64,000 nucleotides of DNA from Zygnema cylindricum (taxonomy: Eukaryota; Streptophyta; Zygnematophyceae; Zygnematales; Zygnemataceae): assembly GCA_037447655.1 (NCBI GenBank), contig JBBHKE010003037.1, forward strand, positions 124,001 through 188,000. Direction: 5' to 3'. Position 1 is the stretch's first letter. Every line of letters starts with the position of its first letter. The translations under genes were made by a program, and so were the position numbers. The notes beneath the pieces were generated by a model, which made no database searches, was not told where the DNA came from, and worked only from the letters and a program-made list of their open reading frames with translations. Of this stretch, positions 1,721-51,248 are shown piece by piece.

Positions 1721-1726
1721 GAGCCA

Positions 1727-12146: not shown

Positions 12147-12169
12147 CTCCCCTAAAGCTTTAGACTTTG

Positions 12170-14143: not shown

Positions 14144-14183
14144 AGCTTAAAAAGACACCAGGTACAGATTCTCGACTAAGCTT

Positions 14184-15680: not shown

Positions 15681-15689
15681 AAATCCTAA

Positions 15690-16295: not shown

Positions 16296-16977
16296 CGTAG
16301 AACAAATCAAGAGAGGAAGCTTCCACAAATACCGATGGCTGAACAGAAACTTTGACAGACTATAACTTTCAGAAAAATGCCCCAAACGTCTTGAAAATTT
16401 GCCACAATGTAGATAACATACAAAGGAACACACACATTATATTTCAATTAATTCCGCTCACAAATCTGTGAGATATGTAGAAATGAAATTACATAAAACT
16501 GAGTGTACAGTTTTCATATCATTTGTTCCCAAAAATCAAATTCACTAAGTCTTACTTTTATAAACCGAAACTACACTAAGCTGTACGAAGGCATTCCAGC
16601 CGTACATCTAACATTCTATCACAAATATTTACACCGAAGTTCAGACAACGTAAAGTGATAATGATATAGTCACGCCTCGTCACTATTTGTTGGCGGCGTT
16701 TGTCAGCGGTCCGATTAGAGGATTTGGCAGCGTAGAATTGACTTCACGAAGTCCAGTGGTCCTGTCGAATTTCCGTACGTCCACGGAGGACATACTCACG
16801 CATTCTCCCAAGTGACGACACGTGTCCCAAGTGTGAATGAACCGTGAACTCCCAACTTCACTGTCGCACTAATTGCGGTAAGTACTGAACCGAACTCAAC
16901 CAAAAATAGCTTAAGTCCTAAACAGCTCTCTCTCACAGCTGAGGCATAAAGAGGACAAAAGCTTTCTAAAAACAACA
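16240..16977 (-). repeat. 5' LTR of copia A1
   Basis: 738 bp, begins TGTTGTTTTTAG and ends CAGAACAACA on the - strand. It contains the gag start codon 56 bases before its end. Confidence 0.9.
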
Positions 16978-16982
16978 GAAAT

Positions 16983-17410
16983 TGCTTCCTCCATTGTGGT
17001 TGAAGCTCTCACCATTCTGGATTGTACCATACATGATGCATATCGAGTCAAATAACGGCTAAACATTGTTTCTACCATGAGTGATGAATCCCCCAGGGCC
17101 TCTCCTTTTCCTAATCAGGTTCGTATAGCCTCTCCCCTTGTTGATGAGTTCATTGCAACCGCCGCTTTGAGGGCGTTGCAGCTGAACCGTAGTCTTTCAA
17201 TTATTCAGCCGGTTACAGCGGATGGATGTGCGGCGTGACCTTGACCCTCATATCAGTTTCTTGGACAATTCCCAGAAGTCTTTCTCCGTTAATGGTGTTG
17301 CTCCCTCTCTCCCTCTCATGGACACCGGAGCCAAACCCGTGATCCTCCGATCCGGATTTGCGCTCAAGCTTGGTCTAACACAGGACAAGCTTCAAGCAAC
17401 GGCTACTTGG
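16983..17410 (+). pseudogene. G3 gypsy gag end and aspartic protease
   Basis: Continuation of G3 beyond A1: SSIVVEALTILDCTIHDAYR, then DLDPHISFLDNS, and the retropepsin motif SLPLMDTGAKPVIL (17310-17345), matching LPLMDTGAKPSIL in G1. The active-site DTG is intact, but the upstream frame is broken. It is cut at 17410 by the LTR of copia A2; the remainder of G3 is not found in the window. Confidence 0.85.
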
Positions 17411-18185
17411 TGTTGTCTTAAGGCAACTGGTGCACCGGAAGAAGAAGAAGAAGCACTTGCAGTTGCCATATTAATCAATACACAAAGAGGAAACTCTCAC
17501 GAAAAACCCACAAAAGACCAACTTCAAAATGAAGCCCCAAAAAAACCAAAAATACCCTAAGTCTCCAAATTTTTTTAAATGTAAATTATACAACAAAGAA
17601 ACCATATGCAGAATTTCAAAAGTTTCTGCCGAAAGATCACAATGATATTGTAATTCAAAGACACCCAAAAAACTGCTTTGCAGTTTTGCATACAAAGAAT
17701 TCCTAAATCCAAAATATTCTAAGTCCTATATATACAAGGGAACCTGTAGCTGATCTACACCGTTGGTTGAGCCTTCAATCGTACACAATATTTATAACAA
17801 ACTTAAAACTAATAGCCGCTAAATTGAAATAGTACGCGGTCAAAGTTCGCACGCTGAAATGACGGGCAATCAATATTCTTCTTTAAAAAAATGACGGCGA
17901 ACGCCGTCAGCCGTCCGCGCAATTTCATCGGCGAAGATAAACCTTCACGTGTAAACCCGGTCCCCAAACGAAACTTTACTTTCCATCATCCGAAACACAC
18001 AATCTTGACTTCCCCACGGACCGACACGTGTGCCTGGAGTGTACTCAGCCTGTGTTCTCCTTTCGGACTTACATACCATATTAAAACCTTTCTACGATAA
18101 ATCAGCCTGCACACAAAATGATTAAGTCCGAAATCTCTTTCTCACACACTAGATATAGAGAGGACTAAAGGTTTCCAAAACAACA
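17411..18185 (-). repeat. 3' LTR of copia A2
   Basis: Begins TGTTGTTTTGG and ends AGACAACA (- strand). It carries an LTR-internal gag start, MATASASSSSSGAPVALR followed by Q-Q at the LTR edge, parallel to A1. The polypurine tract AGGGGGG (+ strand ccccccct, 18186) precedes it. Confidence 0.88.
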
Positions 18186-21690: not shown

Positions 21691-22240
21691 TTTTTATAAA
21701 TGCTGGACACAGCCGAAAAACATGACTTTGACCAAAGCAATAGACACACCTATCATATTGCCTATAATTCGGATTAGGGGTAAAGTTCATATTTCCGAAA
21801 AATCCAGCCGGCTTATATGTCTGAGCATTTTAAGCTACCGCTGAGTGTCCACCATTTAATGCTATCTGAGTGGCCTCTTCCTCTAAGATATAAGCTTCAG
21901 CTACATTCATATTCCATTTACTCTTCTCTAACCTCTTTAACCGTTCCGCGGCTTCTTTATATTCAGTAAGAAGCCCTCTCGTTACATTCATAGCTTGATG
22001 ATAGGGAGGAAAATTCCCCCCAGAACATGCATTTTCCGACAAAAGAAGTTTCAAGCCGTTACAATATGAGTTCATATCCCCCCCAGTATACTTATAATCC
22101 CAAATCTTTCTAGCAGTTATAACCTCATTCTGCTCACTAGCTAGGACATAAGATTCTTTCAAAACCTTCCATATGTCAGATGCCGTAGAGATATTGATAT
22201 ATGTCATGTTCAAATTGTCATGCCGCATCTCGTCGGTCAT
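21690..22240 (-). pseudogene. Copia A2 gag, C-terminal part
   Basis: Contains MTYINISTASDIWKVLKESY and NACSGGNFPPYHQAM (matching A1 NACFGGTFSPYHQAM) and a zinc knuckle CVYCFGQSHVFRLC near 21730. The N-terminal half is absent because of the junction with gypsy G1 at about 22218-22240. Confidence 0.8.
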
Positions 22241-23577
22241 TTTAATTGTTTATATTTAGGTGTTAAGACGGGCAGCCGCCACACTAATTTATATTTGGGT
22301 GTATTTGGGTTTTGCAGGGCCGTACATATTTACGTTGGCCGTAATTTCCGCCGACGACGAGTTCGACCGTATGACATACATCTCCCGTGATTTCTGTCGA
22401 CGGTGGATTTCGTCATTTCACGTCGTCCGTACAATATATATTCTACGAGATTTCCGCCAACGGTGGATTCGATTTTTCACGTAAACCGTACGACTAACAT
22501 TTGCCGCATTTTGCGCGACAACAAAGTGGACCGTACATATTCTCATTTCCCGGAATATCCACCGAAGACTCATTTTCGAATTTGCGCTCGTACAAATAAT
22601 CGTACCGTACCAACTTTCATTCCCGTGAATTCCGGGCGACAACATATTTTAATCATTTCGCGTGGAGTAGCATCTCGGCCGTCGACGCAAAGTATGCAAT
22701 TTTTCGTAACATCACATCTAGACCGTTACGCATGTGATCGACAAAGCGACTGTTTGTTCTGACGAAGCGACGTGATTGGACTATTTTAAGTCGTGAACCA
22801 TTTGGAGGTTCACGCATTCACATGTAGATATGAGGGGTTTTAATCCGTAGGTTATAGATTTTGTAACGTAGGGCAGAGGATTTTGGCCTCCTATTGGCTG
22901 AATCCAAACTAGACGCAAATACTTACATAGCACGCTGTACTCTCATTGGTCTATTTTCACTAGGCGTAGTTTTTGTTACTTAGTTCATTTCGGATCATTT
23001 CCTGCACACAATTTTCAACTGCTGGAATTATTTATTTTCAGTATTGAGGATTTTCTGCAGCCATCTTTTATTTGTAAAATTGTTCGGACAGCTTAGAGGC
23101 AATTTTCTGCCTTTGCGTGAAGCGTCTAGTTTTCTATTACATTATCAATATCTTGTAAAGCCTTACAAATTAATCTATACTGCTTTGGCCAAGACCTACA
23201 CGGTTTCCCTTCACTTTTCTCGTCCTTTTGAGTGGATTTCGACCGCGTTCTCAAGACACAAACTTCTTTTCCCGGCTGTGGCTGAGCTTTAATTAGTGTG
23301 GAAGTTGCATGTTGGGATTATTGATTTGTTGTTTTTATTTCTTGTGATTGTGTATTTATTTCTATTTGCTTATGCGCATCTTTTGAGTTTGGCTATCTTA
23401 AACATCATAAGTGGCGAGCATATTGTCATTTTCTGCTTGTTGTTTGTCTTTCTCGGTTGTGTATGCTTTGATTTGTTTTATTTAAGTATAAATTCAGATT
23501 ATCCTTGATAAGATAACTCCTGCAAGGAATATAAATAGACCGTGGGGCCTAGTGGTCATCCATCGGCTTAGTATTCA
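22218..23577 (+). repeat. 5' LTR of gypsy G1 (first ~200 bp missing)
   Basis: Aligns with the G2 3' LTR from tgcc...tcgtcggtcatt (40556) to the end. The terminus ggcttagTATTCA (23567-23577) is the inverse of TGAATA, which starts the intact LTR, so the family has TGAATA...TATTCA ends. The missing 200 bp at the left edge coincides with the junction to copia A2 gag. No coding content. Confidence 0.85.
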
Positions 23578-24493
23578 TGCACGTGAAAATTGTCGTATTT
23601 TCTTTTCTCGCTTGTTTGTTTTTATTTAGGTTTTCTTTTTATCTAAAGAAAAAAAAAACAAAAACATTTAAAAAAATCAAAAATATATATTTATAGATAC
23701 ATTTCTACAAAAATCTATAACTAGCTTTACATACATAATTACCATTTGCTTGTTAGTTGACGTTTTATCTTATTGGCCATTTTTTGGCCAACAATATACT
23801 ACACTAATTTAAGAATTTGGTTTTTGTTTTCCCCATTTTCTTTACTATATATAAGGGGCATCGTTTGCTCACATTGAGACATACTTCACTAAGGAGTGGA
23901 GTTAGTGGAGCGGATACGTTCTTGGGAGCTCTGTAAAACTTCGGTTGTAAGGAACAACCCAGTTCACCCTTGACAATCACCGGATTGCTAAGAGTGTTAT
24001 GTAAGTATCACGATGCCTTCCGGGTACAAGCGCGTGCTAAGATAGTCGGTTGATCGTATAGAGGGATCGTGTTTGGAGTGGATTAGTGTTAATCCAGTTG
24101 TATTGAGCATTGCATTTGTCCAACTTTCTTTGCTTGATATGTGGCCCTGAGTGGCCTTGGCTGAGTTTGCTTTGCGCGGAGTGGGATTTTTTCCATAGAT
24201 CTTGCTGTTGGAGGCATTGGTTAGCTCTCTTGTGGATTGTGCCGCTTTAGATCTGCACTTGGGAGTTCTTTGATACGAAGTTATTTGCCTTTATAGGTCT
24301 GGCCCTTCGGCCTTGTCCCCTTGTTTGCAGGGTAAAAGGTTTTGGTAATACGGCTTCCTGAAAGATCTGGCCATCGAGGCCCTGTTAGAGATTGATTGGA
24401 TGATTGGACAAGAGAGTGGTGTGGCTTCGCATTTGAAGCATATCAGATAGATCGGTTTTGTTATCTGGTCATCATTTGGTGTTATCATTTTTT
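23578..24493 (+). other. Leader of gypsy G1
   Basis: About 0.9 kb between LTR end and gag start, with an A-rich stretch at 23645-23690. It is identical by eye to 32608-33523 of G2. I could not assign a tRNA primer site with confidence. Confidence 0.7.
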
Positions 24494-25936
24494 ATGCCCA
24501 GCGATTGGGATAATCTTGATTATCTTGTCGGAACCACTCGATCGTGGGCCTTGTTTAGGCTCACGGAATCCGGACCATCAGATTTATCTAGTCTTTTGGA
24601 CCATCTTTTCCACAATATCTCGGGTCAAATTTCCCCTTCGGTTTAATCTACTCTCACCTCGGTATCTTCTTTATCATCTGTGTCTTCCACATTTTTCGAA
24701 GAGGAATTTGACCACGATTCCCTTGACGGGTCGGATTCCAATTCATTATCTTTTTGGTTTCCACAAATTACAAATTCATTATTATCCCCAAGCATTCCAT
24801 TATTGGATATTGCTTCCACATCCGAGGGAGGGGGTCGCCTTCATTTCTGATTTTCAAGAATGAAAGACACCATGACTTTATCGCATTTTTGAATGCTATT
24901 CGATACCGAAATGCGTGATCTTGCATTTCGGTACCAAGATCGGTTTGACCTACGGGTCGCTTTCTCTCTTTTAGGCCGTTAGCTTTGCGGTTCATCCCTT
25001 ATTCTTTATTCCCGCAAGTATGATTCCGTACTTGCGATGACGGAGTTTTTTCCAGCGTTCGCTGGGAGTCCTACTATTATAGGACAACCAGATATGTCTT
25101 ATCAACCGGCTATCTCGGAAGTCCTTGATCTCAACGGCACTATTATTACAACAACGGTTGCGGAATTACCGCAACACTTTGCTATAGCCGCACGTGTTGG
25201 AATCCCAGCACGACCAGCGATAACGATCCCTATACTGGATCAGCTCTCTGTCATGTTTGAAATGTTGCAAGTGGAATACCGTATGCAAAACCCTGACCAA
25301 GTTCGTGAGTTAATGAACTTCGAACGGAAGTCAGGGGAGACCACCCTTGCCATGCGTGCTCGTATGGAAGCTCTTCGTGAAGCATTGCCAGACTTAATGT
25401 CGAATGCTCAAGCTGTCCACAAATTTGTAGGACAGTTTTCGAGTCAGTCTAAGAAATATATTCAGAGTCACCTGACTCAAACGTACGGCTTGAAGTTCAC
25501 ATTCGACCAAGCCGCCCAGCATGCCGTGGAATACGAAATGCCAAATTGTTGGTGGGAAGCCCATGACCATTCTAAAGCAGTCCCAAAAGAACCGATTGTT
25601 CCACCATGGAACAATCCTCGTCCTAACAACCGGCCTTCTAAAGTCTCGGCCATGGGAACCCCACCTGTTGCTCCCGGAAACCGATTATGTTTTCGATGTG
25701 GGAAGACGGGGCATGATGCCCGAATGTGTCCAGACAAAACTGTTACCTGTACACATTGCAAGAAAATCGGACACTATGTCCAACGTTGTCATATAAAGAA
25801 CCCGTAATTTTCTTATCAAAACCAAATTAAAAATGGTGGCATTCTTGCTCGATCCGCAAAACCGGTTCAACTGGTTAAAGAACCGGAGAAAAACACCACT
25901 CCATTAGGGTATCTCAAAGAGAGAGAGAGCGTTTAG
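24494..25936 (+). pseudogene. G1 gypsy gag
   Basis: The ancestral start is the ATG of MPSDWDNLDY; it is in frame with the longest open segment (25037-25807) and matches the G3 start. The frame is broken at 24644 (TAA), 24850, 24880 and near 25000. The open part has TEFFPAFAGSP, LDQLSVMFEMLQVEYRMQN, and two zinc knuckles CFRCGKTGHDARMC and CTHCKKIGHYVQRC (25690-25795), which bind RNA in packaging. GAA in G2 is TAA at 25805 in G1, ending the frame right after the second knuckle. Confidence 0.9.
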
Positions 25937-25938
25937 AA

Positions 25939-26580
25939 ATGCAAGAGCAAATGGCGGCTATGATGAAGGAACAATTTGCAGCCTTCATGACTCAAATGAA
26001 GCCAGAATTTACAGGGATGGCTCGCATTGTTGTACACATGCCCACTTTGGCAGGTCAAATCTTACGAGATTCCACCATCCAACAACGAGAGGCTATGTTC
26101 GACAAAGGTTCGACCGATCACAATCGTGACGGTAAAATACCTAACACACGCATGTCATTCACTAAGGAACTTTCTTCTCCCTTACCCGAAACTGTTTCAG
26201 CCATCGCGGCTGAAGCTCTCAACATACTGGATCCAACTATACACGAGGCACACCGCGTGAAGGAACGCTTGTGCATTCTATCCACTATGATTTACAACTC
26301 ACCAAAAATCTCCCCTATCTCCTTTACCTCCGATAGCTGCGCTACAGCTGCCACGTTACAAGCACTTGAGCTGCACGGAAATCTTGCCGCTATTCAGCCT
26401 ATTTCCATAAACGAGCAAAATTCTCTCGATCCTCACATCAGTTTTTTGGATAACGCGAAGGGTGCATTGTTGATCAATGGTATAGCCCTTTCCCTGCCTC
26501 TCATGGATACGGGTGCAAAGCCGAGTATATTGGGCTCTAGCTTTGCACTCAAGCTTGGTCTAACTCCGGACAAGCTTTAG
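25939..26580 (+). pseudogene. G1 gypsy gag-protease segment
   Basis: A 213-residue open stretch. It starts MQEQMAAMMKEQFAAFM, a coiled-coil-like segment, and ends in the retropepsin motif INGIALSLPLMDTGAKPSIL with DTG intact (26508). The protease would mature the polyprotein. A TAG at 26578 ends the frame where G2 carries a deletion. The following 26580-27160 has shifted, stop-rich frames matching the linker better preserved in G2 (35520-35960). Confidence 0.88.
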
Positions 26581-27160
26581 TCCACTTCTACTCGTTTGTT
26601 AACATCAGCGGGTACAACCGAGCCAGTCCTAGGAATCACTAAGGAACCGCTCGTTAACAGGTTCTAGAACGGAACAGCCACATACTTTGCTAAGATCTCG
26701 GTTCACGCTCTGGTCACTAAATGTAGTGACTATGAATGCCTACTGGGATAAGAGGTTATATTTCGTGTAGGGGGTGAAGTTGACATGCATGATCAGACAT
26801 TTTCTTATAGGCCCACTAACTTTCCAGAACGCAAAATCTGCATTCCGCTAATTTCCGCTAGGAAGCCCATGCCTATTATGGTAAATTCGGCCACATCCAT
26901 ACCTGCATTTTAAGGGAATTCGGTAGGGGCCGAAATATTTCATTCATTGTCAGCAGAAGAAATTCTGCCCGATAGTTGTTACTAACCAGAAATTTTCAAT
27001 GACCTTGGTTTTCTTATAGATACGAGGGAATTTGACTGAATCTATAACGAAACTTTGTCAATTCCACTTTCTCCAGTCTCTCTTACAATCACAGTCCCTA
27101 CAGACTCTTCTGGGTTTCGTCCCATAAATTGGAATCCGGTCGAATTGAAACCTCATCCAA
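26581..27160 (+). pseudogene. G1 protease-methyltransferase linker
   Basis: Decayed copy of the region that in G2 reads IFRVGGGVDMHDETFSYRPT, KICIPLISARKPMPIM and FLPINWNPVELKPHPNGL. Stops at several positions (for example tag after FDYECLLG and in VPAF). No domain recognised; it may be the protease C-terminal part plus a spacer. Confidence 0.7.
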
Positions 27161-28275
27161 ATGGATTGGTGATTTGGACCTCTTCGATGGAATAGGCACT
27201 TCCCTTCTTGCATGTTTGTGGAATGGATTATTAATCCGATTTTATTATTCGGTTGAGATTGAACCATTAGCACGGAAAGCACAATTAAATCATTGTAATC
27301 TGTTGCATTCCCAATACCCGCATTTGTTACCAAAATCCGCATACGAGCATATGCATACTGCTCTCCCACAAGACATACGGATTGTGGGCAACCATTAGTT
27401 ACAGGATATTGGTCCAATCGTTCTAGTTTTTGGCGGATGGGAGTGCCAGGGAATGTCTCGGGCCGGGAAAGGTCTCAAATTAGCCGATCCCCGCACCAAA
27501 TTATATTTTAAATTGGTTCGCATTTTGCATTTTCTACAAGCTTTAGATCATCCTATGGGGTATATCTTGGAAAATGTGGCAGTCTATAATGATCCAAGAC
27601 CTAAAGTCTTGGCTGATTATCAATGGATTGAACAATTAATTGGTCCGCCTCTTATTATCGCCATGGTTCACTAGCACACCGGGTTCGCTCCAAATGGACG
27701 AACGTGATCGATATTGGTAGACTCCGTGAGGCCAACTTGTTAGTTTGTCCTCCTACAAACATTCAGGCTGCCTTTCTTCCTTTCCATAAGGTGCAGCCTT
27801 GCATTAAAAAAGACTGTCCCCCTAATTTCAGTGTCAATGTCCTGGGTCAACCTCTCAAGGTGCTTCCTACCTTAGTTTCGTACCCACATTCACATGCATT
27901 CTCTAATGACGGTCTTGGCATGCTCCGAAACATTCATATCGGTGAGCTCAAAGAGCCTACCTCTACGGAACGAGAACTCCTCATGCATTTCATTTCTGGC
28001 ACTACAGCCGCTTCTGGTCTTACAGAACGTCAAAGATGCGTGTTGTTAGGTCGTGTCATGGACCCTGAGGCTTTGTCTTTTGTTTTAGGTCTCGGGTTTG
28101 CAGCTAGTCGCCACTCTCAAACACATCCGTCTCAACCAGCTGGGGGGGGGGAATGCATCACTAAGAAAATCTTTCCTTCCCACTCTCCAAGGGACCACAT
28201 TTCAATTTTTCCTTTTTCCTTCTCCAATTGCACCAAATCCGGAAATCTCTATCTACGATTTCCTCAAACCTAGCC
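27160..28275 (+). pseudogene. G1 C5 cytosine DNA methyltransferase domain
   Basis: Same domain as in G2. A 1-base loss near 27172 shifts the frame at motif I (DLFDGIGTSLLACLWNG). Motif IV with the catalytic Cys reads FGGWECQGMSRAGKGL (Cys codon 27444-27446), followed by LADPRTKLYFKLVRIL and the ENV of motif VI (27568). A 10-base deletion near 27660 removes the residues before motif VIII. The C-terminal motif IX/X-like block TERQRCVLLGRVMDPEALSF is intact near 28030. Lying between protease and RT on the same strand shows it is part of the retrotransposon. Confidence 0.85.
28142..28151 (+). other. Internal G10 tract after the methyltransferase (G1)
   Basis: The context AGCTG(9-10)AAT is the same as at 36948 in G2 and as the 3' polypurine tract at 40347. 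It is a candidate second plus-strand primer or a slippage site; unproven. Confidence 0.5.
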
Positions 28276-28399
28276 ATATGTCCTAGTCTATCCTTGCATA
28301 CACGGCTGTCTTGTCTACAAGTCCCATGCATATTTCACCCACTCCTCATTAGAGTGTTGCTTTTCCAACACGCAGTTGGAATCATTCGGTTAATTGCCT

Positions 28400-29949
28400 T
28401 AAACAGACACCTGTAGTTTACGAGTTAGGTCAAACGCTTATCGCAGATGAGCAGTTAGACTTTGCACAAGCCATGGAAGCTATGACAACCGAAAATTTTG
28501 ATGCTCCTACATGGAAATTTGGCACCAATCTAACAAAGGCCGAACAAGAGTTGTTGAATGACGTAGTTTCGCGAAATGTCGATGCCTTTGCCTTTTCTAT
28601 GAACGATTTGGGTCGTCACACTGCTTATAAGATGTCGATAGATCTCGAAGATGACTGCCCGATATTTAAACGGAAACATTATTTGTAAGAAACTGAATGG
28701 GAAATGGTAGACAAGCGATGTGCTGAACTAGAGCAAGTTGGCCTAATCTATCGGTCAAACTCCACATTTGCAGCTCCCACTGTCATGCCTCGGAAAAAAG
28801 ATTTTGAGGGTAATTTTATTGAACGTCGAATGTGTGGTGACTATCGTGAACTAAATGCTAGAACGGTCCAAGATCCTCATCCCATGCGTCTTGCCAAAGA
28901 AATATTTGATCACGTAGGCGGAGCAAAGTATTTTATTATCCTTGACCTCCGTCAAGGATTTCATCAAATTGAGATAGAGGAAAAAGACCGGCATAAAACT
29001 GCCTTTTAGGGTAGCGAGAGCCGATGGGAATGGGTCGTAATGCCATTTGGGCTGAAAAATGCTCCGGCAGTATTTCAAAAAGTGAAGGATTCCGTTCTTG
29101 GAGGTTGTAAGTTTGCTAGATGCTACATCGATTACCTCATCATTGCCTCGGCTACTATCGAAGAGCACGCTGCTCACATCGAATGGGTATTGACTGAATT
29201 AAAAAAGGTCGAATAAAATATCATCCAGCGAAATGCACCTTTGGGGCCGAGCGAGTGCCTTACCTCGGCCATTTTATCTCGGCTGAGGGGATCACTCCTC
29301 TCGAAGCAAAGGTAGAGGCAATCAGTATATTGCCTGCTCCCACGGACCTCACAAGTCTGCTAGCCTTTCTCAGACTTGCTAATTATTATCGCAGGTTTGT
29401 ATCTAATTTTAGCACCATCGCATCTCCGCTAAACGACCTTCTGAAGAAGGAAGTGGCGTTTATATGGGGTCCCGATCAGATTTCCGCATTTCAAAAATCA
29501 AAAACCGCTTTATCAAGTGCTCCAATTCTTCGTCCTCCCAATCACAAACTCCCTTTTTGTCTCCAAACAGATTTTGGGAAACCTAGAATCGCTGCCATCT
29601 TGACGCAAAGAAAGTTAAGTGGAGAGGAATACGTAGTTGCTTAGGCGAGCAAAGCAATAACCGGGGTGAATCAAATTATAGTAGCTACGAAGGAGAGTGT
29701 TTAGCCGCGGTTTGGGGAGTTGTTCACTTCCGCCATTATTTGTACGGAAAACCTTTCACACTCCTAACTGACCATCAGCCCTTACATTGGCTGATGACGA
29801 ACGATAAGCTTTCCGGGAAGCTAGCCCGATGGGCTTTAATCTTGCAAGAATATGACGTTGAAATAATTCACCGACACGGTCTGCTTAGTCTAAAAACAGA
29901 CAAAATTTCCGGAAATCCTTTGCCGCGAAACACGGATAACGAAGTTTGA
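28400..29949 (+). pseudogene. G1 gypsy reverse transcriptase and RNase H
   Basis: Blocks in order: WKFGTNLTKAEQELLNDVV, NDLGRHTAYKM, the RT fingers RRMCGDYRELNART, ILDLRQGFHQIEIEE with first catalytic Asp intact, and CYIDYLIIA where the YIDD box is altered to YIDY (29132). RNase H shows LQTDFG, CLAAVWGVVHFRHYLYG and LLTDHQPLHWLM. Stops at 28686, 29008 and 29642 and a frameshift near 29210. Some stops correspond to G-to-A change of TGG (29006). Confidence 0.9.
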
Positions 29950-29979
29950 CAGGATTTCGATGACGACGATGTTCCCGTC

Positions 29980-31067
29980 ATGTCAATGGGTTCATATCTT
30001 ACTTACTGCTTAGCCTCCATTCCGCACCCCCGTCACGCCACAGATCCTTGGCGTGATGGGCCTCTCATTATTTTCTTATCCTCCCAGACCTTCAGGTCCC
30101 GCACTACCTCTAGCGAAGAGGACAGATTGAAAAAGAGGGCCAAAAGTTACCTTTGGCTCGGGGGATCTTTAGTTCGATTGTTAGCAGACGGAAGCCATAG
30201 GCACGTTCCACGGCCTACCGAGCGTCTTTCTCTCATTGAGCAAATTCACACCTAGCTTGGTCACTACGGTACCAAGCGAACGTTACGTCTAGTTTAGGCA
30301 CAATATTGGTGGTCAGGAAAGCAAGCTGATGTCGCTGCTATTATACACAAGTGTGCAACCTGTGACTGTCTCCGAACTTATTTCTCTAATCGGTAGACTA
30401 CACTCGAACCTCTACCCATTAGGGGTTTATTCTATCGATGGTCTGTCGATCTGGGAGGACCTTTCCCCATCTCACGTAGAGGGAAACAATACATAATGAT
30501 TATGATCGAAAATTTCAGTAAGTGGGTAGAAGTCGTAGCCCTGCCTCACAAGACAGCTAAGTTAACCACCGCAACTTTTAAGGAACATGTCCTTATGATA
30601 TACGGTGCCCTAGCCGAGGTCCTTACGGATAAAGGTACGAAATTTCGAGGGGAATTTGAAGAGATGCTTGATGAGGCTGTCATCGATAATTGCCGTACTA
30701 GTCAGGATCACCCCTACGCTCATGGCCTGGCTGAATGGCCAGTCCATACATTTAAGCGTGCTTTGCGTAAGCATTGCTTACAAAAACACATTTCGGTTTG
30801 GGACGAGTCCCTCGGTTACATTACCATGGGATATTGCATGTCGGTTTAGGCTATTCTGGCTAATTTCAGCCCGTATTATGTTTTATTTGGGCGACAACCG
30901 TTGCTCGATCGCAATATTCAGAACGCTGCAAGCTTTCCACTTCCGCTGATGTCTAAGACTATTTTTTTGGAAGAACTCACTCGTCGTGCTTTGCTTTTTT
31001 CCAGTGAAATGCCCATGGATTTTGATAACCTTGTCATTCCCCAGCATTGGGACACACTTCGGTTTGC
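29980..31067 (+). pseudogene. G1 gypsy integrase, truncated
   Basis: Spacer, then the zinc-binding region with CATCD and the core with SVDLGGPFP, LTDKGTKFRG and HGLAEWPVHTFKR (the three acidic residues retained). In-frame TAG codons at 30295, 30394 and 30847 each correspond to CAG in G2, and 30252 to GAG. The copy ends at 31067, joined to the LTR of a copia (E); the GPY/F region and PHD finger seen in G2 are missing. Confidence 0.9.
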
Positions 31068-32124: not shown

Positions 32125-32328
32125 CTCCCCTTATTTTCTAGTCAATCTTTAATTTCAGACCACACTTTTCCCTGCAGAAAATTAGCTTAGGGGAAGGCAC
32201 AGGTTTGGTCATCATATCTGCTACCATCTCACTATCTGGTCGGTACTCTAAGCTGATTATTTTGTTTTCTACTTTCTCTCTAACAAAGCTGAGTCTAATG
32301 TCCATGTGTTTAGCTTTAAAATGATGTT
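32125..32328 (-). pseudogene. Copia E, last part of RNase H
   Basis: Preceded by a polypurine tract (+ strand ctcccctt) and closely similar to 51236-51425 of copia C: the C-terminal pol segment KHHFKAKHMDIRLSFVREK to the MVADMMTKP tail. It is abruptly joined at 32329 to gypsy LTR sequence. The matching upstream pol part may be the fragment beginning at 42127, but that is more diverged, so common origin is uncertain. Confidence 0.8.
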
Positions 32329-32607
32329 TGGAAGTTGCATGTTGGGATTATTGATTTGTTGTTTTTATTTCTTGTGATTGTGTATTTATTTCTATTTGCT
32401 TATGCGCATCTTTTGAGTTTGGCTATCTTAAACATCATAAGTGGCGAGCATATTGTCATTTTCTGCTTGTTGTTTGTCTTTCTCGGTTGTGTATGCTTTG
32501 ATTTGTTTTATTTAAGTATAAATTCAGATTATCCTTGATAAGATAACTCCTGCAAGGAATATAAATAGACCGTGGGGCCTAGTGGTCATCCATCGGCTTA
32601 GTATTCA
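32329..32607 (+). repeat. Truncated left LTR of gypsy G2
   Basis: Only the last ~279 bp of the ~1.58-kb LTR, ending TATTCA. Identical by eye to the corresponding part of the G1 LTR (23299-23577), not to G2's own right LTR. It begins inside the copia E remnant without a visible target duplication. Confidence 0.85.
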
Positions 32608-33523: not shown

Positions 33524-34966
33524 ATGCCCAGCGATTGGGATAATCTTGATTATCTTGTCGGAACCACTCGATCGTGGGCCTTGTTTAGGCTCACGGAATC
33601 CGGACCATCAGATTTATCTAGTCTTTTGGACCATCTTTTCCACAATATCTCGGGTCAAATTTCCCCTTCGGTTTAATCTACTCTCACCTCGGTATCTTCT
33701 TTATCATCTGTGTCTTCCACATTTTTCGAAGAGGAATTTGACCACGATTCCCTTGACGGGTCGGATTCCAATTCATTATCTTTTTGGTTTCCACAAATTA
33801 CAAATTCATTATTATCCCCAAGCATTCCATTATTGGATATTGCTTCCACATCCGAGGGAGGGGGTCGCCTTCATTTCTGATTTTCAAGAATGAAAGACAC
33901 CATGACTTTATCGCATTTTTGAATGCTATTCGATACCGAAATGCGTGATCTTGCATTTCGGTACCAAGATCGGTTTGACCTACGGGTCGCTTTCTCTCTT
34001 TTAGGCCGTTAGCTTTGCGGTTCATCCCTTATTCTTTATTCCCGCAAGTATGATTCCGTACTTGCGATGACGGAGTTTTTTCCAGCGTTCGCTGGGAGTC
34101 CTACTATTATAGGACAACCAGATATGTCTTATCAACCGGCTATCTCGGAAGTCCTTGATCTCAACGGCACTATTATTACAACAACGGTTGCGGAATTACC
34201 GCAACACTTTGCTATAGCCGCACGTGTTGGAATCCCAGCACGACCAGCGATAACGATCCCTATACTGGATCAGCTCTCTGTCATGTTTGAAATGTTGCAA
34301 GTGGAATACCGTATGCAAAACCCTGACCAAGTTCGTGAGTTAATGAACTTCGAACGGAAGTCAGGGGAGACCACCCTTGCCATGCGTGCTCGTATGGAAG
34401 CTCTTCGTGAAGCATTGCCAGACTTAATGTCGAATGCTCAAGCTGTCCAGAAATTTGTAGGACAGTTTTCGAGTCAGTCTAAGAAATATATTCAGAGTCA
34501 CCTGACTCAAACGTACGGCTTGAAGTTCACATTCGACCAAGCCGCCCAGCATGCCGTGGAATACGAAATGCCAAATTGTTGGTGGGAAGCCCATGACCAT
34601 TCTAAAGCAGTCCCAAAAGAACCGATTGTTACACCATGGAACATTCCTCGTCCTAACAACCGGCCTTCTAAAGTCTCGGCCATGGGAACCCCACCTGTTG
34701 CTCCCGGAAACCGATCATGTTTTCGATGTGGGAAGACGGGGCATGATGCCCGAATGTGTCCAGACAAAACCGCTACCTGTACACATTGCAAGCAAACCGG
34801 ACACTATGTCCAACGTTGTCATATTAAAAACCCGGAATTTTCCTATCAAAACCAAATAAAAATTGGTGGCATTCCCGCTCGATCCGCAAATCGGTTCAAC
34901 CGGTTAAAGAACCGGAGAAAGACACCACTCCACCTAGGGTATCTCGAAGAGAGAGAGAGCGTTTAG
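33524..34966 (+). pseudogene. G2 gypsy gag
   Basis: Same structure as G1: ancestral start MPSDWDNLDY with the same in-frame stops as G1 (33674, 33880, 33910), then a 299-residue open part from 34067. It has LDQLSVMFEMLQVEYRMQN, FVGQFSSQSKKYIQSHLTQT and two CCHC knuckles CFRCGKTGHDARMC and CTHCKQTGHYVQRC (34720-34825). Downstream of the knuckles a small frameshift gives RFNRLKNRRKTPLH, and the frame ends at 34966 just before MQEQMVALIKEQF. Confidence 0.9.
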
Positions 34967-34968
34967 AA

Positions 34969-35510
34969 ATGCAAGAGCAAATGGTGGCTTTGATAAAGGA
35001 ACAATTCGCAGCCTTCATGATTCAAATGAAGCCACAATTTACAGAGATGGCTCGCTGTGTTGTACACATGCCCATGTTGGCAGGTCGAATCTTACGAGAT
35101 TCCACCATCCAACAACGAGAGGCTATGTTCGACAAAGGTTCGACCGATCACAGCCGTGACGGTAAAACTCCTAACACACGCATTCCTATGTCATTTAGTA
35201 AGGAACTTTCTTCTCCCTTGCCCGAAAGCGCTTCATCCATCGTGGCTGAAGCTCTCAACATAGTGGATCGAACTATACATGAGGCATATCGCGTGAAGGA
35301 ACGCTTGTGCATTCTATCCACTATGATTTCCAACTCACCAAAAATCTCCCCTATCTCCTTTACCTCCGATAGCACAACTGTAGCTGCCGCGTTACAAGCA
35401 CTTCAGCTGCACAAAAATCTTGCTGCTATTCAGCCTATTTCTATATCGGAGCGAAATTCTCTCGATCCTCACATCAGTTTTTTGGATAACGTGAAGGGTG
35501 CATATTTTTG
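34969..35510 (+). pseudogene. G2 gag end with protease deleted
   Basis: Open segment MQEQMVALIKEQFAAFM...SLDPHISFLDNVKGA that in G1 continues into the DTG protease. In G2 the sequence jumps at about 35502 to the region equivalent to G1 26720, deleting roughly 240 bp with the protease active site. Confidence 0.88.
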
Positions 35511-35965
35511 GATAACTATGAATGTAGTGACTATGAATGCCTAGTGGGACAGGACGTTATATTTCGTGTAGGGGGTGGAGTTGACATGCATGATGAGACA
35601 TTTTCTTATAGGCCCACTAACTTCTCGGAACGCAAAATCTGCATTCCGCTAATTTCCGCTAGGAAGCCCATGCCTATTATGGCAAATTCGGCCACATCCA
35701 TACCTGCATTGTCAGGGAATTCGGTGGGGGCCGAAAAAATTTATTCATTGCCAGCAGAAGAAATTGTGCCAGATATTTCTTACTTACCAGAAATTTTCAG
35801 TGACCCAAGTTTTCTTATAGATACGAGGGAATTTGACCGAATCTATAACCAAACCTTGTCAATTCCACTTTCTCCGGCCTTTCCTACAATCTCAGTCCCT
35901 ACAGACTCTTCTGGGTTTCTTCCCATTAATTGGAATCCGGTCGAATTGAAACCTCATCCAAATGG
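35511..35965 (+). pseudogene. G2 linker upstream of the methyltransferase
   Basis: Open in the same frame as the methyltransferase. Segments include YECLVGQDVIFRVGGGVDMH, FSERKICIPLISARKPMPIM and SGFLPINWNPVELKPHPNG. No recognised domain; the first part resembles the C-terminal side of retropepsins (GQDVIFR), the rest is a spacer. Confidence 0.7.
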
Positions 35966-36960
35966 ATTGGTGATTTTGGACCTTTTCGATGGAATAGGCA
36001 CTTCCCTCCGTGCATGTTTGCGGAATGGATTATTAATCTGATTTTATTATTTGGTTGAGATTGATCCGTTAGCACGGAAAGCACAATTACATCATTGTAA
36101 TCTGTTGCATTCCCAATACCCGCATTTGTTATCGAAATCCGCATACGAGCATATGCATACCGCCCTCCCACAAGACATCTGGATTGTGGGCAACCATCAC
36201 TTACAGGATATTGGTCCTATTGATCTAGTTTTTGGCGGATGGGAGTGCAAGGGAATGTCTCGGGCCGGAAAAGGTCTTGGATTAGCCGATCCCCGCACCA
36301 AATTATTTTTTGAATTGATCCGCATCCTGCATTTTCTACAAACTTTAGATCATCGTATGGGGTATATCTTGGAAAATGTCGCAGCCTATAATGATCCAAG
36401 ACCTATAGTCTTGGTTGATTATCAACGGATTGAACAAATAATTGGTCCGCCTCTAATTATTGACCTGGCTCGCCATGGTTCACTAGCACACCGGGTTCGC
36501 TCCAAATGGACGAACCTCATCGATATTGGTAGACTCCGTGAGGCCAACTTGTTAGTTCGTCCTCCTCCTACAGACATTCAAGTTGCCCTTTTTCCTTTCT
36601 ATAAGGTGCAGCCTTGCATTCAAAAGGAATGTCCCCCTAATTTTAGTGTCAATGTCCTGGTTCAACCTCTCAAGGTGCTTCCTACCTTAGTTTCGTACCC
36701 ACATTCACATGCATTCTCTAATGACCGTCCTGCATGCTCCGAAACATTCATACCGGTGAGCTCGAAGAGCCTACCTCTACAAAACAAGAACTCCTCATGC
36801 ATTTCATTCCTAGCACTACAGCCGCTTACAGAACGTCAAAGATGCGCTTTATTTGGTTGTGTCATGGACCCTCATGCTTTGTCTTTTGTTTTAGGTGTCG
36901 GGTTTGCACTAGGTTGCCACTCTCAGGCATATCTGTCTCAACCAGCTGGGGGGGGGAATG
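35966..36960 (+). pseudogene. G2 C5 cytosine DNA methyltransferase domain
   Basis: About 330 codons between protease and RT, same strand. C5-MTase signatures in order: motif I LDLFDGIGTSLRACLRNG (SAM binding), motif II-like VEIDPLARKA, motif IV FGGWECKGMSRAGKGL with the catalytic Cys codon at 36246-36248, then LADPRTKLFFELIRILHFL, motif VI ENV (36378), motif VIII-like HRVRSKWTNL, and motif IX/X-like ERQRCALFGCVMDPHALSFV. Motif IV has Glu-Cys where most C5-MTases have Pro-Cys. One TGA (36039, CGA in G1) and two compensating deletions (1 and 8 bases, 36727-36830) damage it. The expected role is SAM-dependent methylation of DNA, perhaps element cDNA. Subfamily (DNMT3/DRM, DNMT1 or prokaryote-type) cannot be settled by eye. 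Confidence 0.88.
36948..36956 (+). other. Internal G9 tract after the methyltransferase (G2)
   Basis: AGCTG(9)AAT, the same core as the 3' polypurine tract at 40347-40355. Candidate internal plus-strand primer or slippage site; inference. Confidence 0.5.
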
Positions 36961-37199
36961 CATCACTAAGAAAATCTTTCCGTCCCACTCTCCAAGGGAC
37001 CACATTTCAATTTTTCCTCTTTCCTTCTCCAATTATATCAGTTCCGGAAATCTCTATCTACTATTTCCTCAATCCTAGCCATATGTCCTAGTCCATTCCC
37101 GCATACACGGCTGTCCAGTCTACAAGTCCTTTTCATATTCCACCCACTCCTCATTGGAGTGCTGATTTTCCAACATGCAGTTAGAATCATTCGGTTAAT

Positions 37200-38720
37200 T
37201 GCCTTAAACAGACACCTGTTGCTTACGAGTTAGGTCAAACGCTTATCGTAGATGAGCAATTGGCCTTTGCACAAGCCATGGAAGCTATGACAACCGAAAA
37301 ATTTGATGCTCCTAAATGGAAATTCGACACCAATGTAACAAAGGCCAAACAAGAGTTACTAAATGATGTAGTTTTACGAAATATCGATGCCTTTACCTTT
37401 TCCATGAACGATTTAGGTCGTCACACCGCTTATAAGATGACGATAGATCTCGAGATGATCGGCCTATATTTAAACCGAAACATCGTTTGTCAGAAATAGA
37501 ATGGGAAATGGTAGACAAACGATGTGCTGAACTAGAGGAAGTTGGCCTAATCTATCGATCAGACTCCACATTTGCAGCTCCCACTGTCATGCCCCGGAAA
37601 AAGGATTTTGATGGTAATTTTACTGAACGTCGAATGTGTGGTGACTATCGTGAACTAAATGCTAGAATAGTTCAAGATCATCATCCCATGCCTCTTGCAG
37701 AAGAAATATCTGATCACGTAGGCGGAGCAAAGTATTTTAGTATCCTTGGCCTCCGTCAGGGATTCAATCAAATTGAGATAGAGGAAAAAGACCGGCATAA
37801 AAGTGCCTTTTGGGGTAGCGACGACCGATAGGAATGGGCCGTAATGCCATTCGGACTGAAAAATGCTCTGGCATCTTTCAAAAAGTCATGGATTCCATTC
37901 TAGGAGGTTGTAAATTTGCTAGATGCTACATCGATGACCTCATCATTGCCTCGAATACTATCGAAGAGCACGCTGCTCACATCGAATGGGTATTGACTGA
38001 ATTGAAAAAGGTCGGTTTAAAATGTCATCCAGCGAAATGCACCTTTGGAGCCAAGGGAGTGCCTTACCTCGGCCATTTTATCTCGGCTGAGGGGATCACT
38101 CGTCTCGAAGCAAAGGCAGAGGCAATCAGTAAATTGCTTGCTCCTAGAGACCTCACAAGTCTGCGAGCGTTTCTCGAACTTGCTAATTATTATCGCAGGT
38201 TTGTATCTAATTTTAGCACCATCGCATCTCCGTTAAACGACCTTCTCAAGAAAGAAGTGGCGTTTATATGGGGTCCCGATCAGATTTATGCATTTCAAAA
38301 ATTAAAAACTGCCTTATCGAGTGCTCCAATTCTTCGTCCTCCCAATCACAAACTCCCTTTTTGTCTCCAAACAGATTTTGGGAAACCCGGAATCGATGCC
38401 ATCTTAACGCAAAGAGAGTTGAGTGGAGAGGAATACGTAGTTTCTTACGCGAGCAGAAGCAATAACCGGGCTGAATCAAATTATAGTAGCTACGAAGGAG
38501 AGTGTCTAGCCGCGGTTTGGGGAGTCGTTCACTTCCGCCATTATTTGTACGGAAAACCTTTCACACTCCTAACTGACCATCAGCCCTTACATTGGCTGAT
38601 GACGAACGATAAGCTTTCCGGGAAGCTAGTCCGATGGGCTTTAATCTTACAAAAATATAACGTTGAAATAATTCACTGACCCGGTCTGCTAAGTCTAAAC
38701 GCAGACGGAATTTCCCGAAA
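37200..38720 (+). pseudogene. G2 gypsy reverse transcriptase and RNase H
   Basis: RT begins with FAQAMEAMTTEKFDAPKWKF, then a 1-base shift near 37455, RRMCGDYRELNAR, and ILGLRQGFNQIEI where the first catalytic Asp is changed to Gly (37747). After a shift and stop near 37830 the second half is open: GCKFARCYIDDLIIA with YIDD intact, VPYLGHFISAEGI, ANYYRRFVSNFS. RNase H follows with QTDFGKPGIDAIL, SSYEGECLAAVWGVV and LLTDHQPLHWLM, ending at TGA 38677. Gypsy type from gene order and motif style. Confidence 0.92.
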
Positions 38721-38724
38721 TCCT

Positions 38725-40340
38725 TTGCCTCGAACGAGAGATAACGGAGTTCGACATGATTTTGATGACAACAATGTTCCCGTCATGTCAATGGGTTCTT
38801 ATCATATTTATTGCTTGGCCTCTATTACGAACCCCCGTCCCGCCACAAATCGTTGGCGTGATGGGCCTCTCATTATTTTCCTATCCTCCAAGACCTTCAC
38901 GTTCGGCACTACCTCTGACGAAGAAGACAGAGTGAAAAAGAGGGCCAAAGGTTACCTTTGGCTCAGGGGATCTTTAGTTCGGTTGTTGGCAGACGGAAGC
39001 CATAGGCACGTTCCACGGCCTACCGAGCGTCTTTCTCTCATTGGGCAGATTCACACCGAGCTTGGTCACTACGGTACCAAGCGAACGTTAAGTCTAGTTC
39101 AGGCACGGTATTGGTGGTCAGGAATGCAAGCTGATGTCGCTGCTATTCTACACAAGTGTGCCACCTGCGACCGTCTCCGAACTTCTTTCTCTAACCGGCA
39201 GACTACGCTCCAACCTCTACCTATTAGAGGTTTATTCTATCGATGGTCGGTCGATCTGGCCGGACCTTTTCCTATCTCGCGTAGGGGTAAACAATATATC
39301 ATGATTATGATTGAAAATTTCAGTAAGTGGGTAGAAGTCGTAGCCCTGCCTCACAAGACCGCTAAGTTAACCACCACAGCTTTTAAGGAACATGTCCTTA
39401 TGAGATACGGTGCCCCAGCCGAGGTCCTTACGGATCAAGGTACGGAATTTCGGGGAGAATTTCAAGAGATGCTTGATGAGGCTCTCATCGATCATCGTCG
39501 TACTAGCCAGGATCACCCCCAGGCCGATGGCCTAGCTGAACGAGCAGTCCAGACATTTAAGCGTGCCTTGCGTAAGCATTGCTTAGAAAAACACATTTCG
39601 GTTTGGGACGAGTCCCTCGGTTACATTACCATAGGATATCGCATGTCGGTTCAGGCTAGTCTGGCTAATTTCAGCCCGTATTATGTTTTATTTGGGCGAC
39701 AACCGTTGCTCGGTCGCAATATTCAGAAGGCTGCAAGCTTTCCACTTCTGGTGATGTCTGACACTATTTTTTTGGAACAACTCACTCGTCGTGCTTTGCT
39801 TTTTGCCCGTGAAATGCCCATGGCTTTTGATAACCTGCAGATTGCCCAGCATCGGGACACGCCCAGCATCGGGACACACTTCGGTTTGCCACCACTCAAA
39901 GCGGCCGTTACAGGCCTTTATAGAAGCCCTATCGGGTGGGAGACTATGTTTATCTTCGCACGCAATCTTTTGACACTTTTGACACTGATGTTTCTGCACA
40001 AATCCTACGGATCATCGAGGTGGATCGAAACAGAATGTTGGGATTACAAGGAGCAGACACATAGACTTTTCGAGAGCACTCCAAGAAATGTGCTCCATGT
40101 TACTTACCAGATTTGTCGCATGATATGGATCCTATGCGGATGCCGATTATGGAGGCGACGGCATGTACCTTCTGTCATCGACTGGACAGGGAAACTACCA
40201 TGTTACTTTGTGATCATTGCAATCAGGGGTTTCACATGGAGTGTTTGGTGCCACAATTGTTTGCAGTTCCGGATGGTCACTGATTGTGCCACGGATGTCG
40301 CAAGCTACTGGCCGTGTTGGCCAGCTCTTCTGCCACCTAA
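38725..40340 (+). pseudogene. G2 gypsy integrase with GPY/F-like region and C-terminal PHD finger
   Basis: Open from 38725. H2C2 zinc region (HTELGHYGTKRT ... CATCDRL, 39050-39175); catalytic core with SVDLAGPFP, LTDQGTEFRGEF and ADGLAERAVQTFKR, all three acidic residues present. A 17-bp tandem duplication (39845-39861 copied at 39862-39878) shifts the frame. In the shifted frame the true tail continues as KPYRVGDYVYLRTQSFDTF, a GPY/F-type integrase segment, then ILRIIEVDRNRMLGLQGAD, and a PHD finger at 40164-40300. Stops (TAG 39921, TAG ~40060, TGA 40281) show decay. The ancestral protein ends at TAA about 40338, immediately before the polypurine tract. Confidence 0.9.
40149..40310 (+). other. 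PHD zinc finger at the integrase C-terminus
   Basis: In frame with the GPY/F-like region. Ligands: CTFC, 11 residues, CDHC, 4 residues, H, 2 residues, C, 14 residues, CHGC, i.e. the C4-H-C3 order and spacing of a PHD finger. The residue two before the seventh Cys, nearly always Trp in PHD fingers, is here TGA (40281-40283), one base from TGG. PHD fingers commonly read the histone H3 tail; in integrases this position is usually taken by a chromodomain, so a targeting role is inferred. RING is less likely given the CDxC...GFHxxC...(W)xCxxC pattern. Confidence 0.85.
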
Positions 40341-40355
40341 AGAGCTGGGGGGGGG
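40341..40355 (+). other. Polypurine tract of gypsy G2
   Basis: AGAGCTGGGGGGGGG directly between the end of the integrase-PHD frame and the LTR start (GGAATAAACC). It is the expected plus-strand primer. Confidence 0.75.
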
Positions 40356-41930
40356 AATAAACCGACCTAACCATAACCAGCTAAGTCGTTGACCTTTCTT
40401 TTTCTTTCACCATGCCTGTTGTTATATTTATTCATTTTTCTCTTTCATGTCTTATTTCATTTACAACATATTTTCATCATTTCCATTTAAGTGGAGCACA
40501 ACTGATGATATTGCATGCATCTTCACGCTATTGACACATGCACGACAACTATCATGCCATATGTCGTCGGTCATTTCAATTGTTTATATTTAGGTGTTAG
40601 GACAGGCAGCCGCCACAGTAATTTATATTTGGGTGTATATGGGTTTTGGAAAGCCGTACATACTTACGTTGGCTGTAATTTTCGCCGACGGCGAGTTCAA
40701 CCGTACGACATACATCTCCCGTGATTTCTGTTGACGTTGGATTTTGTCATTTCACGTCGTCCATACAATATATATTCTGCGCGATTTGCGCCGACGGTGG
40801 ATTCGATTTTTCACGTAAACCGTAGGACTAACATTTGTCGGAATTTGCGCGACAACAAAGTGGACCGTACCTACGGTCCTACCGTACCTATTCTCATTTC
40901 TTCGAATATCCGCCGAAGACTCATTTTCGAATTTGCCCTCGTACAAATAATCGTACCGTACCAACTTTCATTCCCGTGAATTCCGGGCGACAACATATTT
41001 TAATCATTTCGCGTGGAGTAGCATCTCGGCCGTCGACGCTGATTATGTAATTTTCGTAACTTCGCATCTGGACCGTCGACGCAAATGACAGACGAATTCG
41101 CTGTAAGTTCTGACGAAGCTACGCTATTGGACTATTTTAAGTCGTGAACCATTTGGAGGTTCACGCATTCACATGTAGATAGGAAGGGTTTTAATCCGTA
41201 GGTTATAGATTTTGTAACGTAGGGCATAGGATTTCGGCCTCCTATTGGTCGAATCCAAACTTGACGCAAATATTTACATAGCACGCTGTACTCTGATTGG
41301 CTTGTTTTCGCTAGGCGTAGTTTTGGTTACTTAGTTCATTTCGCATCATTTTCTGCACACAATTTTCAAGTGCAGGAATTATTCATTTGATTTATTTTCA
41401 GTATTGAGGATTCTCTGCAGCCATCTTTTTATTTGTGAAATTGTCCGGACAGCTTAGAGGCGATTTTCTGCCTTTGCGTGAAGCGTCTAGTTTTCTATTA
41501 TATTATCATATCTTGTAAAGCCTTACAAATTAATCTATACGGCTTCGGCTAAGACCTACACGGTTTCCCTTCATTTTTCTCATCTTTTTGAGTGGATTTC
41601 GACCGCGATCTCACAACACAAACTTCTTTCCCGATTGTGGCTGAACTTTAATTAGTGTGGAAGTTGCATGTTGGAATTATTGTTGTGTTGTTTTTATTTC
41701 TTGAGATTGTGTATTTATTTCTATTTGGCTTTTGCGCATCTTTTGAGTTTGGTTATCTCAAACCTCATAAGTGTCGGGCATATTGTCATTTTCGGTTTTT
41801 ATTTATCTTTCTCGGTTGTTTATGCTTTGATTTATTATATTTAAGTATAAATTCAGATTATCCTTGATAAGATAACTCCTGCAAGGAATATAAATAGACC
41901 GTGGGGCCTAGTGGTCATCCATCGGCTTAG
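40354..41930 (+). repeat. 3' LTR of gypsy G2
   Basis: About 1,577 bp. It starts at (T)GAATAAACCG after the polypurine tract and runs to ggcttag (41924-41930), lacking the final TATTCA seen in G1. Diverged from the G1 LTR by scattered substitutions. Contains the AATATAAATAGACC TATA-like block near 41886. Immediately followed by the start of a second LTR. Confidence 0.85.
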
Positions 41931-42126
41931 TGAATAAACCGACCTAACCATAACCAGCTAAGTCGTTGACCTTTCTTTTTCTTCCACCTTGCCTGTTGTT
42001 GTATTTACCCATTTTTACTTTTATGATTTATTTCATTTCCGATATCTCGCTATCATTTGAGTTTAAGTTGAGCACAGCTGATGATATTGCATGCACCTTC
42101 ATATTATTGGACACATGCACGACAAC
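41931..42126 (+). repeat. First 196 bp of a second, tandem gypsy LTR
   Basis: TGAATAAACCGACC... repeats 40356-40550 with substitutions and ends at cgacaac, where copia pol sequence resumes. It forms a direct LTR-LTR junction with the preceding LTR. Confidence 0.85.
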
Positions 42127-51235: not shown

Positions 51236-51248
51236 CTCCCCTTATTTT

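Follow-up and report, generated by a model that had tools for sequence, protein, structure and literature searches.

A window of 64,000 nucleotides (nt) of Zygnema cylindricum DNA (assembly GCA_037447655.1, contig JBBHKE010003037.1, positions 124,001 to 188,000 of the forward strand) contains, at window positions 32312-42126 of the + strand, a decayed Ty3/gypsy long terminal repeat (LTR) retrotransposon, here called copy B. Its domain order is gag, DNMT3-type C5 cytosine methyltransferase (MTase), reverse transcriptase (RT), RNase H (RH), integrase (INT), GPY/F, PHD finger and 3' LTR (Table 1), as called by scanning stop-to-stop frames with Pfam and with family hidden Markov models (HMMs) built from relatives. 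The succession of RT, RNase H and integrase with gag upstream (Pfam, HMMs), the direct LTRs and the polypurine tract are those of a Ty3/gypsy element; TG..CA termini were not seen in the LTRs as read, nor, by eye, was the usual tRNA primer site behind the 5' LTR. An initial annotation had placed an MTase, RT/RNase H, integrase, GPY/F-like segment, PHD finger, polypurine tract and LTR on one strand and in one element spanning 35966..40340; the Pfam order and the HMMs confirm this content, but the element extends further in both directions, with gag and a 5' LTR remnant upstream and the 3' LTR downstream.

Table 1. Features of copy B and of related elements in the window.
Feature	Position	Strand	Evidence
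5' LTR remnant of copy B, last ~290 nt	32312..32602	+	direct repeat of 41655-41931, 92.8%
gag open reading frame with CCHC zinc knuckle, copy B	34013..34966	+	Pfam PF00098 E 3.6e-5; GAG HMM 34196-34768
C-terminal protease remnant and linker into MTase motif I	35490..36038	+	open reading frame
DNMT3-type C5 cytosine MTase domain, one in-frame stop at 36039	35961..36920	+	PF00145; family HMM; 47% to P0002
TAG stop between MTase and RT, common to copy A	37089..37091	+	sequence comparison of copies
Reverse transcriptase, in two frames	37478..38136	+	PF00078 (RVT_1) in two pieces, first below cut-off; HMM
RNase H	38269..38685	+	PF17917 (RT_RNaseH) E 7.4e-34; HMM
Integrase, H2C2 zinc-binding and rve core	38953..39579	+	PF17921 (Integrase_H2C2) E 2.8e-14; PF00665 (rve) E 1.3e-12; HMM
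GPY/F-like integrase C-terminal segment, shifted frame, stops at 39921 and 40062	39864..40133	+	HMM; alignment with relatives
C4HC3 PHD finger, in-frame stop at 40281	40158..40301	+	PF00628; HMM; alignment with PHD stretches of 44 relatives
G-rich polypurine tract, directly 5' of LTR	40337..40354	+	by eye
3' LTR of copy B, borders approximate	40355..41931	+	40552-41931 against copy A LTR 22218-23572, 89.9%; end matches 5' LTR remnant
Start of another LTR, immediately following the 3' LTR of copy B (LTR-LTR junction)	41932..42126	+	86% to 40355-40549
Copy A, same family: 5' LTR 22218-23572, gag, protease 26428-26784, MTase 27174-28132, RT, RNase H, integrase	22218..31066	+	window self-comparison; HMMs
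Third, older relative: gag piece 10384-10773, protease piece 17243-17428	9481..17428	+	split by nested element bounded by 11409-12146 and 16240-16977

The domains for which the initial annotation had proposed profile searches, namely the MTase, the PHD finger and the integrase, all gave matches. PF00145 matched the MTase in the open reading frame (ORF) 36042-37088 (E 5.9e-7; 29.7 bits against a curated cut-off of 22), and window positions 35520-37004 aligned in tblastn with residues 687-1221 of the protein P0002. An alignment of 57 rows has the catalytic Cys of motif IV and the Glu of ENV (motif VI) in 57/57 and the Arg of motif VIII in 56/57, and motifs IX-X are present as well. Copy B itself keeps the Cys, Glu and Arg, has an in-frame stop, and deviates towards motif X at several residues that are otherwise conserved. 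PF00628 matched the PHD finger in ORF 40065-40280 (E 1.1e-8; 35.4 bits against a cut-off of 24) in a piece ending at the internal stop, and all eight C4HC3 ligands are present when copy B is aligned by reading through it. The segment between integrase core and PHD finger, a GPY/F module, was recognised by the relatives-built HMM and by alignment, with no match to a Pfam model. A chromodomain was also considered as the integrase tail and was rejected: the tail carries the PHD finger, and Pfam scans of the window pieces and of the related proteins P0044 and P0066 gave no chromodomain match.

Copy B is a dead element, with in-frame stops at 36039, 37089, 37182, 39921, 40062 and 40281 and its GPY/F-PHD part in another frame than the integrase. 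The initial annotation was right to assign MTase and PHD to one element, but the two are not in one ORF in copy B, as they are in relatives. The protease remnant that it had reported is borne out with its core missing: there is no match to the protease (PR) HMM in copy B, where about 252 nt of copy A, a second member of the family, face only 17 nt, and the aspartic protease core is kept in copy A and in L028, a relative described below. Copy A has the same layout, with about 91% identity to copy B over the pol part in a window self-comparison, and is truncated shortly behind the integrase, at the point where a different repeat (31067-32332) starts; only copy B shows a PHD because copy A ends before the GPY/F-PHD part. 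Ratios of nonsynonymous to synonymous substitution rates (dN/dS) between the two copies are 0.51-0.61 for the MTase, 0.53-0.58 for the RT pieces, 0.31 for RNase H, 0.26-0.49 for the integrase and 0.36 for gag, and are best read as a mixture of old selection and decay, in which the MTase appears to have fared about like the core. The copies are identical over 2.1 kb (32329-34449 in copy B) and about 91% alike thereafter, which reflects either recent gene conversion or an assembly patch.

A protein search with the window MTase frame returned three long proteins. P0003 (1834 amino acids (aa), EukProt) combines RNase H, MTase, integrase and PHD within a single ORF. It is collinear with the window first over the integrase and then through the GPY/F-PHD tail (36% across 157 columns; joined set of high-scoring segment pairs, E 1.7e-101). 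Searching with its integrase-tail/PHD region (residues 1180-1360) yielded 39 proteins, P0003 included, with MTase matches in 37, PHD matches by the family HMM in 37 (partial in P0038 and P0041) and both domains in one ORF in 35. The four exceptions are P0012, which starts inside the integrase, P0034, which starts 135 aa before it, P0040, which breaks off in the first part of the PHD, and P0042, which does so in GPY/F. A further search with the MTase of P0002 yielded 26 proteins, all 26 matching the MTase HMM; 11 of these continue for over 50 aa beyond GPY/F, and a PHD is present in 10 of the 11, P0055 being the exception. Over all three protein searches, both domains are present in 42 of 63 different proteins. 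Two proteins, P0036 and P0061, are from Haematococcus lacustris, a green alga.

The related elements come in two layouts. Type I has the MTase between RNase H and integrase (29 proteins show this succession of the three within a single ORF); type II, to which the window belongs, has it between protease and RT. Seven type II proteins (P0039, P0044, P0046, P0051, P0054, P0055 and P0060) have the MTase before RT in one ORF, and in 14 the protease is followed by the MTase within a single ORF, RT not intervening. When genome contigs were scanned with the type II alignment, a nearly intact relative emerged, L028 (contig CADCWO010000201.1, 9285 nt), which is titled as a cyanobacterial metagenome-assembled genome and by its content is very likely eukaryotic contamination. 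Its ends have 127 identical bases in common, as might result if the assembler had closed an LTR element into a circle. In a single frame, L028 shows the same succession of domains as the window, gag-PR-MTase-[TAG]-RT-RH-INT-GPY/F-PHD (MTase 2235-3224, RT 3729-4400, integrase 5265-5888, GPY/F 6162-6437, PHD 6456-6596); its match to the window is 50% across 679 aa in pol and 43% across 148 aa in the tail. Its MTase and PHD match PF00145 (45.9 bits, E 6.8e-12) and PF00628 (E 4.3e-10), and its frame is open from position 3 to 6633 except for a sole TAG at 3489, between MTase and RT.

The crowding of nested repeats in the window, and the abrupt change from identity to about 91% likeness between copies A and B, which could be an assembly patch, might be taken to mean that insertion or misassembly brought a piece of a host DNMT, or a nested element, next to a PHD exon from the host. 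This is scarcely credible in view of the same order in P0044 (from part of the MTase to the PHD in one ORF) and in L028 (one frame, a single TAG), the collinear alignment of the tail, and the dozens of ORFs that each contain both domains; for practical purposes an accidental composite is refuted by L028 and these ORFs. The combination of MTase and PHD is thus no accident of decay or nesting, since 35 of 39 proteins carry both in one ORF and L028 has the window's order in one frame.

The two positions of the MTase match the phylogeny, because type I is split from type II both in an MTase tree (97/87; 56 rows, comprising copy B and the 55 proteins with a domain score >300, P0039 and P0044 being left out) and in a tree of RNase H plus integrase (98/96; 32 rows). 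The window groups with P0002 in the former (99/94); in the latter it falls with P0044, an ORF that includes a PHD (100/97; 66% identity). The PHD tails of both types are preceded by a similar linker in the alignment; the simplest history would therefore be that PHD and MTase were present in the common ancestor, after which the MTase moved (or was captured a second time) and the PHD was lost near P0055.

The MTase is of the DNMT3 class, nearer to DNMT3 than to bacterial or other eukaryotic MTases: DNMT3A/B rank first in profile comparison, DNMT3 is first among MTases by fold, and in a tree of 188 columns, with one DNMT3A row and no DNMT1/2/5/6 or DRM rows, the 10 prokaryotic or phage rows split off at 100/99. 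A bacterial or phage origin was considered and is not favoured by the profile ranking and this tree. The outgroup rows are one Streptomyces locus from the genome-contig scan and 9 of 27 loci found in viral contigs with query A1 (25-42% matches for the best segment, in the MTase part); scans of the viral contigs with single proteins (twice) and with query A3 found no relative. Type I rows except P0063 form a clade in the outgroup tree (99/99), P0063 pairs with DNMT3A (86/87), both on long branches, and type II has no resolved placement. Forcing all element MTases into one group lowers the log-likelihood by 0.57-1.33 units (p-AU 0.46 and 0.44), so that one capture and two are both compatible with this tree, in which DNMT3A is the only host row.

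Several relatives outside the window carry further domains. Five type I proteins (P0034, P0026, P0029, P0033 and P0030) have, behind the PHD, a WGxxxxRG...YFxVxYEDGD-like segment that looks Tudor-like by eye, with no profile match. The same tails have a second MTase-like domain, whose DPFAGSG and SPPF motifs are conserved in P0034 as well as in P0026; no convincing hit for it came from searching solved structures by sequence, and sub-cut-off Pfam matches together with a predicted fold closest to adenine MTases make it adenine-MTase-like. In P0029 a G-patch domain (PF01585, E 1.6e-4) lies at residues 1166-1198, between MTase and integrase. P0039 (2877 aa), a type II environmental protein, has three 2A-like motifs (GDVESNPGP, GDIESNPGP and the variant EGIEPNPGP) before a strongly diverged C5-MTase, which precedes RT and is too diverged for placement, and a PHD at its end.

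Chromoviruses are Ty3/gypsy elements with an integrase chromodomain; the window lineage likewise has a chromatin-reader-type domain at the integrase C-terminus behind GPY/F, and unlike them it has a PHD instead of a chromodomain, plus a DNA MTase. The host enzymes DNMT3A/3B, in which the catalytic domain is partnered with ADD, a PHD-like reader of histone H3, share the catalytic domain class of the element MTase; unlike them, type II elements are mobile, place reader and writer on opposite sides of RT-INT, and have a canonical PHD and not an ADD. An arthropod retrotransposon carrying an MBD was reportedly described by de Mendoza in 2019. A Dnmt3-class MTase inside the Pol of a Gypsy element is known from KnitGypsy-Dnmt3 of the charophyte Klebsormidium nitens, where it is described as intronless, with key residues conserved and under purifying selection (PMC5890265, de Mendoza et al. 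2018); going by the description, its repeats are DIRS-like, unlike the ordinary direct LTRs of the window element, and none of the relatives found here was identified as a K. nitens sequence. The same paper presents SymbioDIRS-Dnmt3 and SymbioLINE-Dnmt of Symbiodinium as further retrotransposon-borne cytosine MTases, and it gives SymbioDIRS two structures with different Pol domain orders, comparable to types I and II. Unlike the window element, these belong to the DIRS and LINE classes, and DIRS has no DDE integrase to bear a PHD tail because it uses a tyrosine recombinase. The DNA transposon Ginger1-9_HM is described with a PHD behind a gypsy-like integrase with GPY/F, as in the window; it is not an LTR retrotransposon, its PHD comes with a Ulp1 protease domain, and no C5-MTase is named in the text available (PMC2836005). 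CR1/L2 LINEs have a PHD in ORF1 as a proposed targeting aid; these too are not LTR elements, and the available text names no C5-MTase (PMC4120745). DNMT domain and plant homeodomain meet in one protein in Heterosigma and Chattonella transcriptomes, in what are given as DNMT1-like enzymes, neither retrotransposon parts nor of the DNMT3 class (PMC9998398).

The initial annotation had called the combination undescribed. The DNMT half is already published, including a charophyte Gypsy element, but the PHD partner appears, tentatively, to be new within the literature searched. The term PHD does not occur in the main text of PMC5890265, figures apart, or in the accessible text of PMC6338049, which names chromodomains as accessory domains; the main text of a 2025 survey of DNMTs (PMC12344493) mentions retrotransposon DNMT3s and no PHD domain. 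By title and abstract, no open-access paper was found on PHD plus DNMT in a gypsy or LTR element, an absence that counts for little with subscription papers and figures outside the search.

Retrotransposons that carry a DNMT are puzzling, because methylation normally silences such elements. That a histone-reader-type finger travels with the MTase in nearly all the relatives found suggests joint action. The profile of the PHD resembles the fingers of CHD4, KDM5, BAZ2, PHF21A and AIRE, several of them readers of histone H3 whose lysine 4 carries no modification (H3K4me0), and binding of the H3 tail by the element PHD is predicted from this likeness to known readers. An old Ty3/gypsy lineage in which a DNMT3-type MTase methylates the complementary DNA (cDNA) or insertion and an integrase-end PHD tethers to H3K4me0 is regarded as moderately probable. 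In L028 a UAG separates gag-PR-MTase from RT-RH-INT-PHD. This TAG is followed by CAATCA (3489-3497), which fits the CARYYA readthrough context of tobacco mosaic virus (a 1 in 512 chance under equal bases) and suggests readthrough of the stop codon; by eye, the ORFs of P0045, P0047, P0048 and P0049 end in the same MTase-RT region. Such readthrough would leave gag-PR-MTase in excess, the MTase being made along with Gag. The MTase could then methylate new cDNA or the fresh insertion, as retrotransposon DNMTs are described as able to methylate CGs de novo (PMC5890265). The PHD would tether the integration complex to H3K4me0 nucleosomes, in a role like that of the chromodomain in chromoviruses, and the writer would act where the reader of the same particle had landed, in what would be a split version of the ADD and catalytic domain of DNMT3.

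The MTase may instead mainly restrain the element, self-methylation marking new copies for host maintenance with less harm to the host, and the PHD serving the stability of the integrase or its complex rather than targeting. Slower retrotransposition to the host's benefit was one option offered in 2018 (PMC5890265), P0055 in the window's own branch manages without a PHD, and histone binding is only a prediction; this is nevertheless unlikely, as the zinc ligands and the LLCDxC...CLxPxL core are kept in alignment across widely diverged elements, which a structural role alone would not require, and the closest solved fingers include histone readers. About equally improbable are two unrelated additions, an MTase that protects or marks cDNA in the particle against host sensing or editing and a PHD that targets integration independently. 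In the window's branch the MTase goes with Gag-PR and the PHD with the integrase, separable by stop codon and protease, and the MTase has moved between two orders as the PHD stayed at the integrase end; against this stand the near-constant co-occurrence (35/39) and the other branch, in which the MTase immediately precedes the integrase and shares a stretch with the PHD.

Several observations weigh against joint action of reader and writer as set out above. The co-occurrence holds within the neighbourhood of an MTase-bearing element, from which the PHD search began, and more distant PHD-only gypsy lineages are possible for that reason. P0055 stops after GPY/F, so that on at least one occasion the PHD could be dispensed with or replaced; the nearest relative with a PHD, P0044, has its start within the MTase. 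Both window copies are broken, copy A never shows the PHD, and a dN/dS around 0.5 between them is weak evidence by itself. The readthrough context was found in one DNA sequence only, L028, the window TAG at 37089 lacks CARYYA in copies A and B, and P0044 and P0046 go from MTase to RT without a stop. Retrotransposon DNMTs may also act on other substrates, such as the RNA considered for a LINE element with a DNMT that failed to methylate DNA in yeast (PMC5890265).

A broader proposal, possible though doubtful, is that this widespread gypsy lineage consists of self-contained read-write devices, with a DNMT3-class writer and an H3K4me0-reading integrase PHD, which would insert in chromatin with unmodified H3K4 and mark themselves, part of type I adding a Tudor-like domain and an adenine-type MTase, and type II setting the dose of the writer by readthrough. 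The architecture on which the initial interpretation was built holds; control over landing site and DNA marking may be inferred from it, and such an element may steer both its insertion site and the marking of its own DNA. Reading chromatin, inserting and then writing is a testable idea: L028 and the single-ORF proteins supply expressible proteins for both halves, and two natural domain arrangements with one PHD-less sister are material for testing the coupling of reader and writer.

An unrelated repeat family of about 1.26 kb has four copies in the window (31067-32332, 50185-51444, 56433-57484 and 63204-64000), one of them on the - strand; the first lies between copies A and B. A diverged tandem repeat occupies two blocks at 1728-3873; its unit is close to 17 nt, the self-comparison showing offsets at 17 and multiples thereof.

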